The notes beneath the pieces were generated by a model. That model saw only the letters and a program-made list of their open reading frames with translations, was not told where the DNA came from and did not search any database. Both the position numbers and the translations under genes were made by a program. From Methylotenera sp. (GTDB taxonomy: Bacteria; Pseudomonadota; Gammaproteobacteria; Burkholderiales; Methylophilaceae), in contig NZ_JABFRA010000061.1 in assembly GCF_013141425.1 (NCBI RefSeq), forward strand, positions 1 to 36,768: DNA of 36,768 nucleotides, in the 5' to 3' direction. Below, piece by piece: positions 6,948 through 36,768 of the stretch. The number at the start of each line of letters is the position of its first letter. The first letter of the stretch is position 1.

Positions 6948-7304
6948 GTGTTAGAAAATTACTTTCCGATATTGATGTTTATCCTCGTGGGCTTAGCTGT
7001 CGGCGTCGGCCCTCTTGTATTAGGCTTGCTGGTTTCGCCGCATAAGCCTGATTCTGCAAAAAATTCCCCTTATGAATGTGGTTTTGAGGCGTTTGAAGAT
7101 GCCCGCATGAAGTTTGATGTGCGCTATTATTTAGTTGCTATTTTATTCATATTGTTCGATTTAGAAATTGCTTTCTTGTTCCCATGGGCTGTCGTGCTTC
7201 AAGAAATTGGCCTGTTTGGTTTTATTGCCATGATGATATTTTTAGGTGTGTTGGTCATCGGTTTTATTTACGAGTGGATGAAGGGCGCCCTAGAATGGGA
7301 TTAA
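6948..7304 (+). CDS. nuoA: NADH-quinone oxidoreductase subunit A
   Basis: This 118-residue membrane subunit of complex I helps form the quinone-site junction between the peripheral arm and the membrane arm. It shows three transmembrane segments (about residues 8-28, 62-82 and 88-108). The conserved loop [20 protein letters not shown] near residue 45 contains the invariant Cys and acidic residues. The start is a GTG at 6948, giving the typical MLENYFP N-terminus, with a G-rich TTGGGG about seven bases upstream. It is the first of fourteen nuo genes; nuoB follows after 43 bp. Confidence 0.96.
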
Positions 7305-7347: not shown

Positions 7348-7824
7348 ATGAGTATTGAAGGTATTTTAGAAAAAGGATTTGTGACCACAACGCTGGATAC
7401 GGTGATTAATTATACCCGCACTGGTTCAATGTGGCCGATGACTTTTGGTTTGGCCTGTTGCGCGGTAGAGATGATGCACGCGGGTGCGTCACGTTACGAT
7501 TTAGACCGTTTTGGCATTGTGTTTCGTGGCAGTCCACGTCAATCGGATGTAATGATAGTAGCGGGTACGTTGGTTAATAAAATGGCGCCAGCCCTGCGTA
7601 AAGTTTACGATCAAATGGCAGAGCCGCGTTGGGTAATCTCAATGGGTTCTTGTGCAAACGGTGGTGGTTATTACCATTATTCTTATGCGGTAGTACGCGG
7701 ATGTGATCGCATTGTGCCCGTGGATGTTTACGTGCCAGGTTGCCCACCAACAGCTGAGGCCTTGCTCTACGGCATCATTCAGCTGCAAAATAAAATTAAA
7801 CGTACCAATACGATAGCGCGCTAA
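7348..7824 (+). CDS. nuoB: NADH-quinone oxidoreductase subunit B
   Basis: This 158-residue peripheral-arm subunit carries the terminal 4Fe-4S cluster N2, which passes electrons to quinone. The four ligands are visible: the tandem Cys37-Cys38 in [12 protein letters not shown], Cys102 in [11 protein letters not shown] and Cys132 in [11 protein letters not shown]. The protein is full length. It lies between nuoA and nuoC, with a 4-bp gap to nuoC. Confidence 0.97.
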
Positions 7825-7828
7825 CGAC

Positions 7829-8425
7829 ATGGCCACTAAATTAGAGCAATTATTAACAAGCTTGCAAGCATCGCTGGGCGACAAAATATCCAAGTCTATT
7901 GTTGAGTTTGGTGAAATAACTATTGAATGTAAGGCGGCAGATTATTTAAATGTGTGCCAGATTTTGCGTGACGACAGCGCTTTAAAATTTGAACAGTTAA
8001 TCGATTTAAGTGGCGTGGATTATCAAGCTTATGGCGATGGCGCTTATGAAGGTTTGCGTTACGCTGTGGTTAATCACTTGTTATCTGTTTCACTTAATCA
8101 GCGTGTGCGTTTACGCGTTTTCGCGCAAGATGAAGATTTTCCGATATTGCCAACTTTGGTTGAAACTTGGCCAGTGGCCAATTGGTTTGAGCGCGAAGCC
8201 TTTGATTTATTCGGCATTATGTTTGAGAACCACCCCGATTTACGCAGATTGCTCACCGATTATGGCTTTGTTGGCCATCCGTTCCGTAAAGATTTCCCGA
8301 TGATTGGTACTGTTGAAATGCGTTACGACCCCGAACAGCAGCGCGTGATTTATCAGCCAGTATCCATTGACCAGCGTAATAATGTGCCGCGCGTGATTAG
8401 AAGCGAAGGGGCGCACCATGGCTGA
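7829..8425 (+). CDS. nuoC: NADH-quinone oxidoreductase subunit C
   Basis: This is the 30-kDa peripheral subunit, 198 residues, which packs against NuoD and has no cofactor. The signature [29 protein letters not shown] lies near residue 115 (quoted here only as a landmark by its [12 protein letters not shown] core), followed by GHPFRKDFP. It is separate from NuoD, unlike the fused NuoCD of Escherichia coli. Its last 8 bp overlap the nuoD start, which suggests coupled translation. Confidence 0.96.
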
Positions 8426-33978: not shown

Positions 33979-34055
33979 CGGGGCATAGCGCAGCCTGGTA
34001 GCGTACATGCCTGGGGGGCATGGGGTCGCAAGTTCGAATCTTGCTGTCCCGACCA
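33979..34055 (+). tRNA. tRNA-Pro (anticodon GGG)
   Basis: A full 77-nt cloverleaf with encoded CCA. The acceptor CGGGGCA pairs with TGTCCCG (one G-U). The D arm is GCGC/GCGT, the anticodon stem CATGC/GCATG encloses CTGGGGG with anticodon GGG, and the T arm GCAAG/CTTGC encloses TTCGAAT. Its last 27 bases are repeated exactly at 36704-36730, so the gene has probably served as an integration site. Confidence 0.96.
34029..34055 (+). repeat. Candidate att site, copy 1 (3' end of tRNA-Pro)
   Basis: These 27 bases, from the T-arm through CCA, are identical to 36704-36730 in the same orientation. Identity stops on both sides (preceding G versus A; following TTAAAA versus AAACTT). Duplication of a tRNA 3' end is the usual footprint of tyrosine-integrase insertion, with the intact tRNA kept at one end. 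Confidence 0.8.
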
Positions 34056-34064
34056 TTAAAATCA

Positions 34065-34104
34065 AAGACTTACAGTTTAACGGCTGTGGGTCTTTTTTGT
34101 TTTA
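34065..34104 (+). terminator. Intrinsic terminator after tRNA-Pro
   Basis: AAGACTTACAG (34065-34075) pairs along all 11 positions, two of them G-U, with CTGTGGGTCTT (34084-34094) over an 8-nt loop. TTTTGTTTT follows. It starts 10 bp after the tRNA CCA. Confidence 0.8.
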
Positions 34105-34155
34105 TGGTGTCTATGGGTACACTCAAAAAAAGGTAGGTATTAAAATCATTGGTAA

Positions 34156-34299
34156 GGTAGAGGAGTTAAACTATTCAACCCCAATGCGCGTCTGGTACTC
34201 AATTATATCCAGACCAATTTAGATACTGACATTGTATTGAAAGGCAAGCGTGACGATAAAGAGAAGGTTGTCACTTTGCGCGCGCAATATGATTTCTAA
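34156..34299 (+). pseudogene. Remnant of outer-membrane porin C-terminus (OprO/OprP-like)
   Basis: The frame from 34156 to the TAA at 34297-34299 encodes 47 residues with no start codon; it begins right after an in-frame TAA at 34153. It contains LFNPNARLVLNYIQTN and ends TLRAQYDF. This matches the final beta-strands of phosphate-selective porins (NPNxRLxLNY then LRAQFDF), including the terminal Phe needed for outer-membrane assembly. The barrel upstream is missing; the preceding 100 bp hold a tRNA terminator and unrecognisable sequence. It is a 3' gene fragment lying 29 bp before modA. The resemblance is from memory of the family. Confidence 0.65.
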
Positions 34300-34328
34300 A
34301 AGTAACTAGAAATATTCAAAGGATTCAT

Positions 34329-35093
34329 ATGTTAAAAAAATTATTAGTGATTGGGCTGCTAACTATTGCAAGCTTTCTTTCTTTTATTGCACATGCCGAG
34401 CAGAAAATAACTGTATTTGCTGCAGCAAGTCTTACAAATGCAATTTCTGATATTGCTAGTGAATACGAGAAAGATAAACAAATAAATATTCAAACTTCAT
34501 TCGCTTCGTCGTCCACTTTAGCTAAGCAGATTGAAAAAGGTGCACCAGCAGATATTTTTATATCAGCAGATACAAAATGGATGAATTATTTGCAAGAGAA
34601 AAACCTCCTTAATGCAGGAAGTAAGGTTAATTTGTTAGGTAATCAATTAGTGCTGATTGCTCCCAAAGGCAAAGCATTTAAGATAGAAATGGAGAAAGGC
34701 TTCAATATTGCTGGTGCATTCAGTGGCAAATTATGCACGGGGGAGCTAGATTCAGTGCCTGTTGGGATTTACGCAAAGCAATCTTTAAAAAACCTTAACT
34801 GGTGGGATGCCATTAAAATGCGAATTGTGGGGACACAGGATGTTCGTGCTGCTTTGGTGTTTGTTGAACGTGGTGAGTGCGATGCAGGGATTGTCTATGA
34901 AACTGATGCCAAGGTGTCCACTAAGGTAGATAACGTTGCCGCCTTCCCTGAATCGAGCCATGACCCAATCGTATATCCTTTAGCCTTAACAAAAAATGCG
35001 AATCAAAGTGCTAATAGCTTTTATGATTATTTGAAGTCTGAAAAAGCAAAAGTTATCTTCAGCAAATACGGCTTTAACACTAACTTACAATAG
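34329..35093 (+). CDS. modA: Molybdate ABC transporter substrate-binding protein
   Basis: This 254-residue periplasmic protein binds molybdate (or tungstate). Residues 1-23 are a signal peptide, with a likely cut after AHA. The mature protein has VFAAASLTNAISDIA near 32, ASSSTLAKQIEKGAPADIFISAD near 60 (core SSSTLAKQI), and GIVYETDAKVS near 195, which form the oxyanion site with the conserved Ser and Tyr residues. AAAGGA lies about seven bases before the ATG. It is followed by modB after 15 bp. It is the first gene of the modABC operon inside the tRNA-Pro-flanked segment. No ModE-type operator was recognised upstream. Confidence 0.93.
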   Translation: MLKKLLVIGLLTIASFLSFIAHAEQKITVFAAASLTNAISDIASEYEKDKQINIQTSFASSSTLAKQIEKGAPADIFISADTKWMNYLQEKNLLNAGSKVNLLGNQLVLIAPKGKAFKIEMEKGFNIAGAFSGKLCTGELDSVPVGIYAKQSLKNLNWWDAIKMRIVGTQDVRAALVFVERGECDAGIVYETDAKVSTKVDNVAAFPESSHDPIVYPLALTKNANQSANSFYDYLKSEKAKVIFSKYGFNTNLQ

Positions 35094-35108
35094 AAGTTAT
35101 TTAATCAC

Positions 35109-35819
35109 ATGTTAGATATATTGCGATTTACACCTTCAGAGTTATCCATCCTGTGGTTATCTCTGAAAGTAGCTTTATTTTGTGTTGCGCTAATTTTGGT
35201 GCCAGCCATTGCGGTGGCTTGGGTTCTCGCCAGAAAATCATTCTTTGGCAAATCATTACTTGATAGCCTTGTGCATTTGCCATTAGTTTTACCACCAGTA
35301 GTCCCAGGATTTTTACTTCTTCTTCTATTGGGCAATCAAGGTCTAATAGGAAAATACTTGCACAACATCTTTGGAATAAGCCTAGCTTTTACTTGGATGG
35401 GGGCGGTGGTTGCCTCAGCAGTCATGGCATTTCCACTGTTGGTGCGTTCAACTAGATTATCTATTTCGCATGTCGATAGAGGTTTAGAGATTGCAGCACA
35501 ATCTTTAGGTGCACATCCACTGAAGGTGTTTTTTACTATTACCTTGCCATTGGCTATGCCCGGCATTATTACTGGTTTAATTTTAGCCTTTAGCCGCAGT
35601 TTAGGTGAGTTTGGGGCAACGATTACTTTTGTCGGTAATATTGAAAATGAAACGCGCACGCTACCATTAGCAATTTACAGTTATACGCAGATTCCTGATG
35701 GAGACTTACCCGCCTTAAGGTTAGTGATATTAAGTATGGTGTTAGCCTTGGGCGCATTGATGATAAGCGATAAGCTTGAACGTAAAGCTAATCAGAATAT
35801 TGGCCGTCATCATGATTGA
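35109..35819 (+). CDS. modB: Molybdate ABC transporter permease
   Basis: This 236-residue inner-membrane permease has about five or six transmembrane segments. The EAA loop that contacts the ATPase is LEIAAQSLGAHPLKVFFTITLP near residue 125 (core AAQSLGAHPLKVF). LPLVLPPVVPGFLLLLLLG near 57 and AFSRSLGEFGATITFVGN near 165 are ModB-specific landmarks. Length is normal for the family. Its stop overlaps the modC start by 8 bp, which suggests coupled translation. Confidence 0.93.
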   Translation: MLDILRFTPSELSILWLSLKVALFCVALILVPAIAVAWVLARKSFFGKSLLDSLVHLPLVLPPVVPGFLLLLLLGNQGLIGKYLHNIFGISLAFTWMGAVVASAVMAFPLLVRSTRLSISHVDRGLEIAAQSLGAHPLKVFFTITLPLAMPGIITGLILAFSRSLGEFGATITFVGNIENETRTLPLAIYSYTQIPDGDLPALRLVILSMVLALGALMISDKLERKANQNIGRHHD

Positions 35820-36450
35820 GGTTCATGCACGACTTAAACGCAAACATTTCGAGTTAGATGCCTCACTGCAATTAACTCAACGTGTGAATGCGATATACGG
35901 CCCATCTGGCTCTGGTAAAAGTACTTTGTTAAGTATCATTGCTGGCATCACACAGCCAGATAGTGGCCGCATTATGATTAATGGTGAATGTTTGTTTGAT
36001 AGTGAATTGCAAATTAACATACCTATACACGGGCGAAAGATTGGCTTGGTGTTTCAAGACGGTCGATTATTTCCCCATCTCACTGTGGAACATAATTTAA
36101 GCTATGCACTAAATTTTACTCCAGTACAAAAACAACAGTTCCAACTTAAGCAAATTGTTGAATTGTTGGAAATCGGTCAATTATTAAATCAACGACCTCA
36201 TCAACTTTCTGGCGGTGAGAAGCAGCGCGTGTCATTGGGACGTGCATTACTTAGCTCACCAAGATTGTTAATGTTGGACGAACCGCTAGCCTCTTTGGAC
36301 GAAAGACTCAAGGGCCAAATATTACCGTTTTTAAAGAGGGTCGCGGACGAAGTGGAAATTCCTATGATTTATATTAGTCATTCTATGGAAGAGATATTAA
36401 AAATTACTGACAACATCATTGATATCCAACTTGGAAAGATTATAAATTGA
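35812..36450 (+). CDS. modC: Molybdate ABC transporter ATP-binding protein, short form without TOBE/Mop domain
   Basis: This 212-residue ATPase powers molybdate import with ModB. Walker A is GPSGSGKS (30-37), the Q-loop Gln is in VFQDGRLFPHL (82), the signature is LSGGEKQ (132-138), Walker B is LLMLDEP (152-158) and the switch His is in YISHSMEE (190). I use the ATG at 35812, which overlaps modB by 8 bp; an in-frame start at 35776 would add twelve residues of modB-overlapping sequence. E. coli ModC has about 350 residues with a C-terminal molybdate-sensing domain. Here the protein ends just after IIDIQLGKIIN, and no continuation is seen in other frames downstream. It could be truncated or a naturally short form; the ATPase core is intact. 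Confidence 0.9.
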   Translation: MIEVHARLKRKHFELDASLQLTQRVNAIYGPSGSGKSTLLSIIAGITQPDSGRIMINGECLFDSELQINIPIHGRKIGLVFQDGRLFPHLTVEHNLSYALNFTPVQKQQFQLKQIVELLEIGQLLNQRPHQLSGGEKQRVSLGRALLSSPRLLMLDEPLASLDERLKGQILPFLKRVADEVEIPMIYISHSMEEILKITDNIIDIQLGKIIN

Positions 36451-36579
36451 GTGTCTCAGTTGGGTCGAAAGCACCGAAATTCAATGTCTGCTTTACTGCA
36501 CTCCAATTTTATTGTGTATTAATTACCGATTTGTAGCAAACCTATTTAGGGGACATAGGGTAAGTGAAATTCAAGATAT

Positions 36580-36615
36580 AAGAACGCCAGCATTAAAAAG
36601 TTTAGTGGCGTTCTT
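36580..36615. repeat. Perfect 10-bp inverted repeat downstream of modC
   Basis: AAGAACGCCA (36580-36589) is exactly complementary to TGGCGTTCTT (36606-36615). A small inner stem TAAA/TTTA (36594-36597 and 36601-36604) is possible in the loop. No T-run follows on the plus strand (GTGGCTATC), so it is not a classical terminator, though it may still mark the 3' end of the mod transcript. Confidence 0.5.
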
Positions 36616-36703
36616 GTGGCTATCAGTAGCTTAATTATGCTTAACTATGACATAAAGCTAATGCCTATAATGAGCGATAAGCATAGCATAGGTTGTTGAT
36701 TTA

Positions 36704-36730
36704 CAAGTTCGAATCTTGCTGTCCCGACCA
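36704..36730 (+). repeat. Candidate att site, copy 2 (partial tRNA-Pro 3' end)
   Basis: These 27 bases are identical to the last 27 bases of tRNA-Pro(GGG), from the T arm through the encoded CCA. Nothing upstream folds into the rest of a tRNA, so it is a fragment and not a second gene. It lies 2,675 bp from copy 1, in direct orientation. Confidence 0.8.
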
Positions 36731-36768
36731 AAACTTAAAATGAGTTACTTGTTGTAAATTAAAGCCTG

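Follow-up and report, generated by a model that had tools for sequence, protein, structure and literature searches.

Cis-mobilizable elements (CIMEs) form a defined class of genetic element, as set out in the available passages of PMC5704250. In Candidatus Methylopumilus, the available parts of PMC10872708 describe additive flexible genomic islands (fGI-2) that range in size from 330 bp up to 42 kb and are marked by repeats of the last 20 tRNA bases. Here we analyse a 36,768-nucleotide stretch of Methylotenera sp. DNA (the window, which is the whole of contig C79), in which the molybdate transport operon modABC lies between two direct copies of the 3' end of a tRNA-Pro(GGG) gene. We consider the enclosed segment to be, with a probability of roughly 0.86, a decayed, CIME-like islet, i.e. 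the remnant of an integrative element carrying modABC, the insertion event itself being deduced from sequence comparison. This reading builds on direct observations: the repeats, an empty site in a relative, arms shared with other insertions, the failure to find an integrase, and a mosaic cargo. Coordinates are collected in Table 1.

Repeats, right flank and empty site

The final 27 bases of tRNA-Pro(GGG) recur downstream in direct orientation with 27/27 bases identical, as claimed in the preliminary description of this DNA and confirmed by repeat and genome searches. The insert between them is 2.65 kb long, and both its ends resemble element ends. As is characteristic of integrative elements at tRNA genes, the direct repeat is that of a tRNA 3' end, and an intact tRNA is present at one end. 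The chance-copy expectation for a 27-mer is ~2e-10 in the 2.48-Mb genome, and searches of the own genome found it at two places only. An apparent third copy at C61:63-89 is copy 2 again, because C61:1-127 is identical to C79:36642-36768. The possibility that the repeat is a tRNA-like sequence scattered in the genome, raised beforehand as an objection, is ruled out by the absence of any copy beyond these two. The observation of a repeat-flanked modABC is confirmed as real.

Only 38 bases separate copy 2 from the end of the window, which is also the contig end, and therefore all sequence further to the right comes from C61, which the 127-bp assembly overlap identifies as the continuation of the window. 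A LuxR-type gene with a GerE domain is located on the minus strand at C61:166-792, with type II secretion genes beyond it and flagellar genes further on (names from reading translations). Reading this downstream sequence for an integrase and further repeats had been proposed at the outset; neither was found on the 46-kb C61, the repeat being sought with up to 6 edits. The profile used was made from 7 tyrosine recombinases of the own genome and 25 from relatives, and it detected no tyrosine integrase in the window or on C61, in agreement with the original remark that none accompanies modABC. The same profile detects the integrase of the G172 element described below (E 2.3e-28), which was not among its building sequences. 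PF00589 has eight matches in the genome, on eight contigs other than the window and C61, and two of these Phage_integrase matches lie in frames of >400 aa with an arm-binding domain. With no integrase of its own found in the window or on C61, the element is hence described as a remnant.

The genus set comprised 52 genomes, own included, and the LuxR-type gene is present at ≥78% in four of these (own, G034, G035 and G051). In G034, merR and tRNA-Pro are directly followed by the LuxR gene, and the genes beyond it match those of C61; this constitutes an empty site. The own outer flanks, when joined, align to it with 73% identity over 1290 columns; the segment is accordingly absent as a unit from a relative, albeit of another species, as the preliminary description had suggested might be seen. 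The merR/tRNA-Pro side and the LuxR gene are on different contigs in G035, while in G051 the same two neighbours are ~19 kb apart, separated by a different insert that ends in a 42-bp tRNA piece. It was also conceivable that all relatives carry modABC at this place, but the operon lies behind tRNA-Pro in 0/40 genus loci (representing 40 of 51 relatives) and 0/11 named loci, at least 4 of the latter (L050, L051, L052, L053) being the same contigs as genus loci and some loci being shorter than 4 kb. Three weak modC matches (31-36%) in relatives' tRNA-Pro loci proved to be other ATP-binding cassette (ABC) ATPases.

Because the LuxR gene directly follows tRNA-Pro in G034, copy 2 can be assigned as the right end of one insertion. 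The preliminary description had also entertained copy 2 as the junction of a second, tandem element continuing past the window. Tandem right ends do exist, with two arms 5 kb apart in G045, and in G160 the second copy is likewise followed by a left arm. Nevertheless, the next gene beyond copy 2 is the very one that borders the empty site, and neither a further repeat within 6 edits nor an integrase was found on C61, rendering a tandem junction highly improbable. Support for the other option then offered, loss of the integrase from an islet, comes from the G034 empty site together with the match of both ends to other tRNA-Pro insertion ends.

Arms and other occupants of the tRNA-Pro site

The arms were sought by comparing the insert with tRNA-Pro loci at the DNA level and by searching the 52 genus genomes and 187 family genomes. 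The right ~130-160 bases, including the tRNA piece, match G045 at 84% (E 4.5e-49), while the right arm with its repeat also matches a second copy in G045 (73%), G029 (74%) and G041 (71%). Paired GTGGC boxes are common to the five full right-arm copies, own included. In G041 the copy is located ~10.1 kb behind the tRNA-Pro, and the left arm matches there too; in G012 a 54-base part of the right arm runs into an assembly gap. A search with the box pattern returned 14 places in 13/187 genomes, compared to 2 for a reversed-pattern control. Six of the 14 are known arms or G012, and the other eight are without a tRNA tail within ~210 bases; the matches in G034, G036 and G051 represent one homologous stretch, taken as coding. 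The right arm found no match in plasmids and phages.

The left arm combines a terminator hairpin with TGGGTA(A/C)AC-like boxes, found at +59, counted from the tRNA, in the window and at +59 and +71 in G041, G026 and G160; the window left arm is devoid of the second box at +71. The first 70 bases, compared ungapped to G160, agree at 54/70 positions behind tRNA-Pro and 53/70 behind the partial second copy, so this module is not confined to the position behind a tRNA gene but can also follow a partial copy. Comparison to the G034 empty-site flank yields 43/84 identical columns with many gaps. Hence, element-specific arms are seen at either end, the right arm in G045, G029 and G041 and the left arm in G041 and G160. 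A left-arm box precedes arm-domain integrases in 8/30 loci in forward and 0/30 in reverse orientation, a count that lacks a proper control and was considered too weak to be used. Just behind modC, positions 36452-36495 resemble short dispersed sequences in G043, G006, G042 and G044.

The tRNA-Pro(GGG) site is an insertion hotspot. In G172, from another genus of the family (L312), tRNA-Pro and a second copy enclose 14.4 kb that include a 473-aa integrase (Arm-DNA-bind_3, Phage_int_M, Phage_integrase) located 207 bp from copy 2 of this element. The element shares with the window the tRNA-Pro target and the 27-bp core copy, and differs in its size, its own integrase, another right arm and a longer tRNA-like piece at the right end. 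G160 has polyphosphate kinase and exopolyphosphatase genes between the copies with no integrase found, and none was found in the G041 and G051 inserts either, so that one of the five bounded inserts (own, G041, G051, G160 and G172) carries an integrase. Fourteen proteins from the G041, G045, G051, G160 and G172 sites have no strong match in other tRNA-Pro loci, except that one protein from outside the G160 copies has a 35% match in G002.

Several further features of these loci were recorded. An apparently truncated integrase-like frame abuts tRNA-Pro in G009 (L138, 692-1228), the only one among 40 genus loci. In L296 (G045:C175), two right arms with the tRNA-Pro end, at 1969-2138 and 6964-7102, bracket a parE-parC pair; parE is the best NCBIfam match of the first gene, below cut-off, and parC was named from reading the translation. 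L311 (G160:C2) carries ppk, a phosphatase-like gene and ppx between copies at 1981-2007 and 7613-7639, each copy being followed by the left arm. The genus has tRNA-Pro(GGG) in two versions, distinguished by their anticodon stem and T arm. Both occur in G019 (L152, L258), where the second lies on a separate contig and has a left-arm-like hairpin. The tRNA-Pro of L313 (G087:C76, 2671-2747) combines the anticodon stem of one version with the other's T arm, as though its 3' half had been exchanged.

A number of observations weigh against a decayed integrative element at this locus. No integrase was found by this right arm in the stretches of G041, G045, G029 and G012 (the last three being short or gapped), nor was any arm with an integrase seen in the stretches examined across the 187 family genomes, and the right arm of the integrase-bearing G172 element is a different one. 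The right copy in G041 is followed by a flagellar gene, not the LuxR gene, so the right flank differs in that genome. Counts of left-arm boxes do not exceed those in shuffled sequences: boxes occur in 14/47 flanks (mean 11.1 and maximum 20 after shuffling), and 4 flanks have two or more (mean 1.2 and maximum 4 after shuffling). Nor does the hairpin identify the arm by itself, as similar hairpins follow tRNA-Pro in small genomes. Finally, the empty and filled sites come from different species, and the C79-C61 join is based on the 127-bp overlap and synteny, not on reads.

Cargo and its exchange with a related lineage

Between the repeats, nothing beyond the mod genes and a porin stub was recognised, in accordance with the initial account of the cargo. 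ModA (288.6, cut-off 253) and ModB (322.2, cut-off 262) score above the respective NCBIfam equivalog cut-offs. ModC, which is without the C-terminal part, falls just below its cut-off (276.6 compared to 285.05) because it is short. The same short ModC is present in G033 and G034. In these genomes modABC is located away from tRNA-Pro and is preceded by a complete porin gene, Porin_O_P in G033, and by a short ModE-like gene. At 116 aa, the G033 ModE-like protein is short as well, and the G033 mod locus (L220, G033:C154), the most similar to that of the window, adjoins a tRNA-Arg(CCG) at 7848-7924. A DNA search of the own genome with the G034 locus found neither ModE nor the full porin, the sole exception being a porin-like match of 159 bases on C97.

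Table 1. Features of the repeat-bounded segment and its borders (window coordinates)
Feature	Position	Strand	Basis or remark
tRNA-Pro(GGG), intact, putative integration target	33979..34055	+	ARAGORN
Attachment (att) core copy 1 (putative attL), last 27 bases of the tRNA	34029..34055	+	Repeat search
Putative left arm: terminator hairpin 34064-34095, one TGGGTACAC box 34114-34122	34056..34124	+	Sequence comparison
Porin gene 3' stub, last ~43 codons	34172..34299	+	Full gene precedes modA in G033, G034
modA, molybdate-binding protein, mosaic	34329..35093	+	NCBIfam; G033 similarity jumps near 34536
Block in common with G033:C154	34536..36468	+	85-100% in 60-base steps as far as 36455; end of blast alignment at 36468
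modB, molybdate permease	35109..35819	+	NCBIfam
modC, ATPase, short form	35812..36450	+	Ends at ~position 210 of 353-position family models
Putative right arm of the element, paired GTGGC boxes 36602-36622	36571..36703	+	Recurs in G045 (twice), G029, G041
att core copy 2 (putative attR)	36704..36730	+	Repeat search
Original right flank of tRNA-Pro, continues at C61:128	36731..36768	+	Then LuxR-type gene, minus strand

The ModA of the window is the only ModA match of the genome; relatives with 62-87% identity occur in 13/51 other genus genomes, two as fragments. A formate dehydrogenase alpha subunit is encoded in the genome (909.9, cut-off 666.25) and is likely to provide at least one molybdate user. 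Two more molybdopterin oxidoreductases score below their cut-offs, and a fourth match, in the window, was dismissed as NuoG. A promoter scan from tRNA-Pro to modA gave none on the plus strand, with 3 sites in the region compared to 8.6 expected.

The similarity of the cargo to G033 changes abruptly within modA. From 34536 to 36455 identity is 85-100% in 60-base steps and 94-98% by gene segment, while 34416-34535 is 67-73% identical to G033 and 83-85% identical to G019; taken as a whole, 34388-36468 is 94.5% identical to G033. A G019-like source upstream of 34536 was considered and is uncertain, as G019 is the closest genome over 34236-34295 and 34416-34535 and loses that rank in 34296-34415. 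Core DNA is 77.7% identical to G033 over 1012 bases. Protein identities to G033 are 99% for ModB and 96% for ModC compared to 69% for PheT and 71% for MerR, whereas to G034 they are 81% for PheT, 86% for MerR, 94% for ModB and 83% for ModC. The cargo is close to G033 while the core genes are distant, and thus modABC is read as a horizontally exchanged mosaic, for which either lineage may have been the donor.

The mosaic modA implies homologous recombination did act at this locus. This raises the question whether modABC arrived by homologous or illegitimate recombination altogether, with the tRNA piece duplicated by chance or rearrangement, a route also in line with no integrase being left. Such a non-integrative origin appears very unlikely given that the duplication coincides exactly with the tRNA 3' end and that this piece also terminates other inserts, both those that have the arms in common (G041, G045 and G029) and those whose arms differ (G051, G160 and G172).

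Proposed history and relation to known systems

We propose that a tyrosine-integrase element inserted into the tRNA-Pro(GGG) 3' end, an event that would have rebuilt the tRNA and left the 27-bp partial copy 2.65 kb downstream. The integrase and almost the entire body of the element would have disappeared later, so that a truncated left arm, complete core repeats and ~130 bp of right arm are left. Between these arms, a fragment of a modE-porin-modABC locus (the porin stub and intact modABC) was presumably captured by the element, the order of loss and capture being conjectural. Most of the cargo length may then have been exchanged with a G033-lineage mod locus by homologous recombination in either direction. 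At present modABC would serve as an ordinary molybdate importer, if expressed as supposed, and any remaining excision would presumably depend on an integrase acting in trans.

The segment might instead be a minimal cassette that is still mobilisable, with both att sites working and a resident or incoming integrase excising modABC in trans. The identical core repeats and conserved right arm are compatible with this, as are the eight Phage_integrase matches in the genome, including the two long frames with an arm-binding domain. However, the left arm has no second box, the cargo is broken within a gene at its porin end, and no matching integrase was identified, making continued mobility doubtful when compared to a decayed remnant.

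A broader and likewise speculative extension is that tRNA-Pro(GGG) in Methylophilaceae acts as a docking site, shuffling ordinary chromosomal operons, as opposed to the usual accessory genes, between genomes as small att-bounded, integrase-less cassettes with the integrase acting in trans. Candidate cassettes are modABC here, ppk-phosphatase-ppx in G160 and parE-parC in G045, with further candidates in the polysaccharide and lipid-transport genes of G051 and the two-component and ABC set of G041 (names from reading translations). We rate this as unlikely; if true, a trans-acting integrase would move core functions between genomes.

The locus documents a tRNA-Pro(GGG) hotspot in Methylophilaceae with empty, decayed and integrase-bearing versions. 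It indicates that a remnant of this kind can house the single molybdate importer found in a genome, and that this importer can have been exchanged horizontally. This is relevant to the movement of nutrient-uptake operons among related methylotrophs when no vehicle is apparent. PMC3056050, in the available parts, locates modABC away from putative islands, and no island is mentioned where the available passages of PMC3596284 describe the genes. No report of modABC as the sole cargo of a tRNA islet appeared in the titles and abstract openings of the molybdate-transport and genomic-island literature matches listed, which upholds the initial view of this cargo as unusual.

As in CIMEs (available passages of PMC5704250), attL and attR are kept at a tRNA 3' end, and integration and transfer genes are lost: none were recognised here, while both att sites remain. 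The cargo here is a single molybdate operon, and descent from an integrative and conjugative element (ICE) or integrative and mobilizable element (IME) as well as mobilisation in cis, which belong to the CIME definition, would be hypothetical for this locus; no neighbouring element for mobilisation was seen at the site. In the Dehalococcoides ssrA islands, as described in the available parts of PMC3146451, RNA-gene 3'-end repeats similarly bound tandem islands, not all of which have an integration module, but a serine recombinase and a transfer-messenger RNA (tmRNA) target are involved. The fGI-2 islands share with our locus the family Methylophilaceae and tRNA-end repeats, and some carry metal-transport genes; they are located at tRNA-Lys, in contrast to tRNA-Pro(GGG), a Methylotenera-like genus and modABC here (available parts of PMC10872708). 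The kind of element is already known, and it is the cargo that is unusual.

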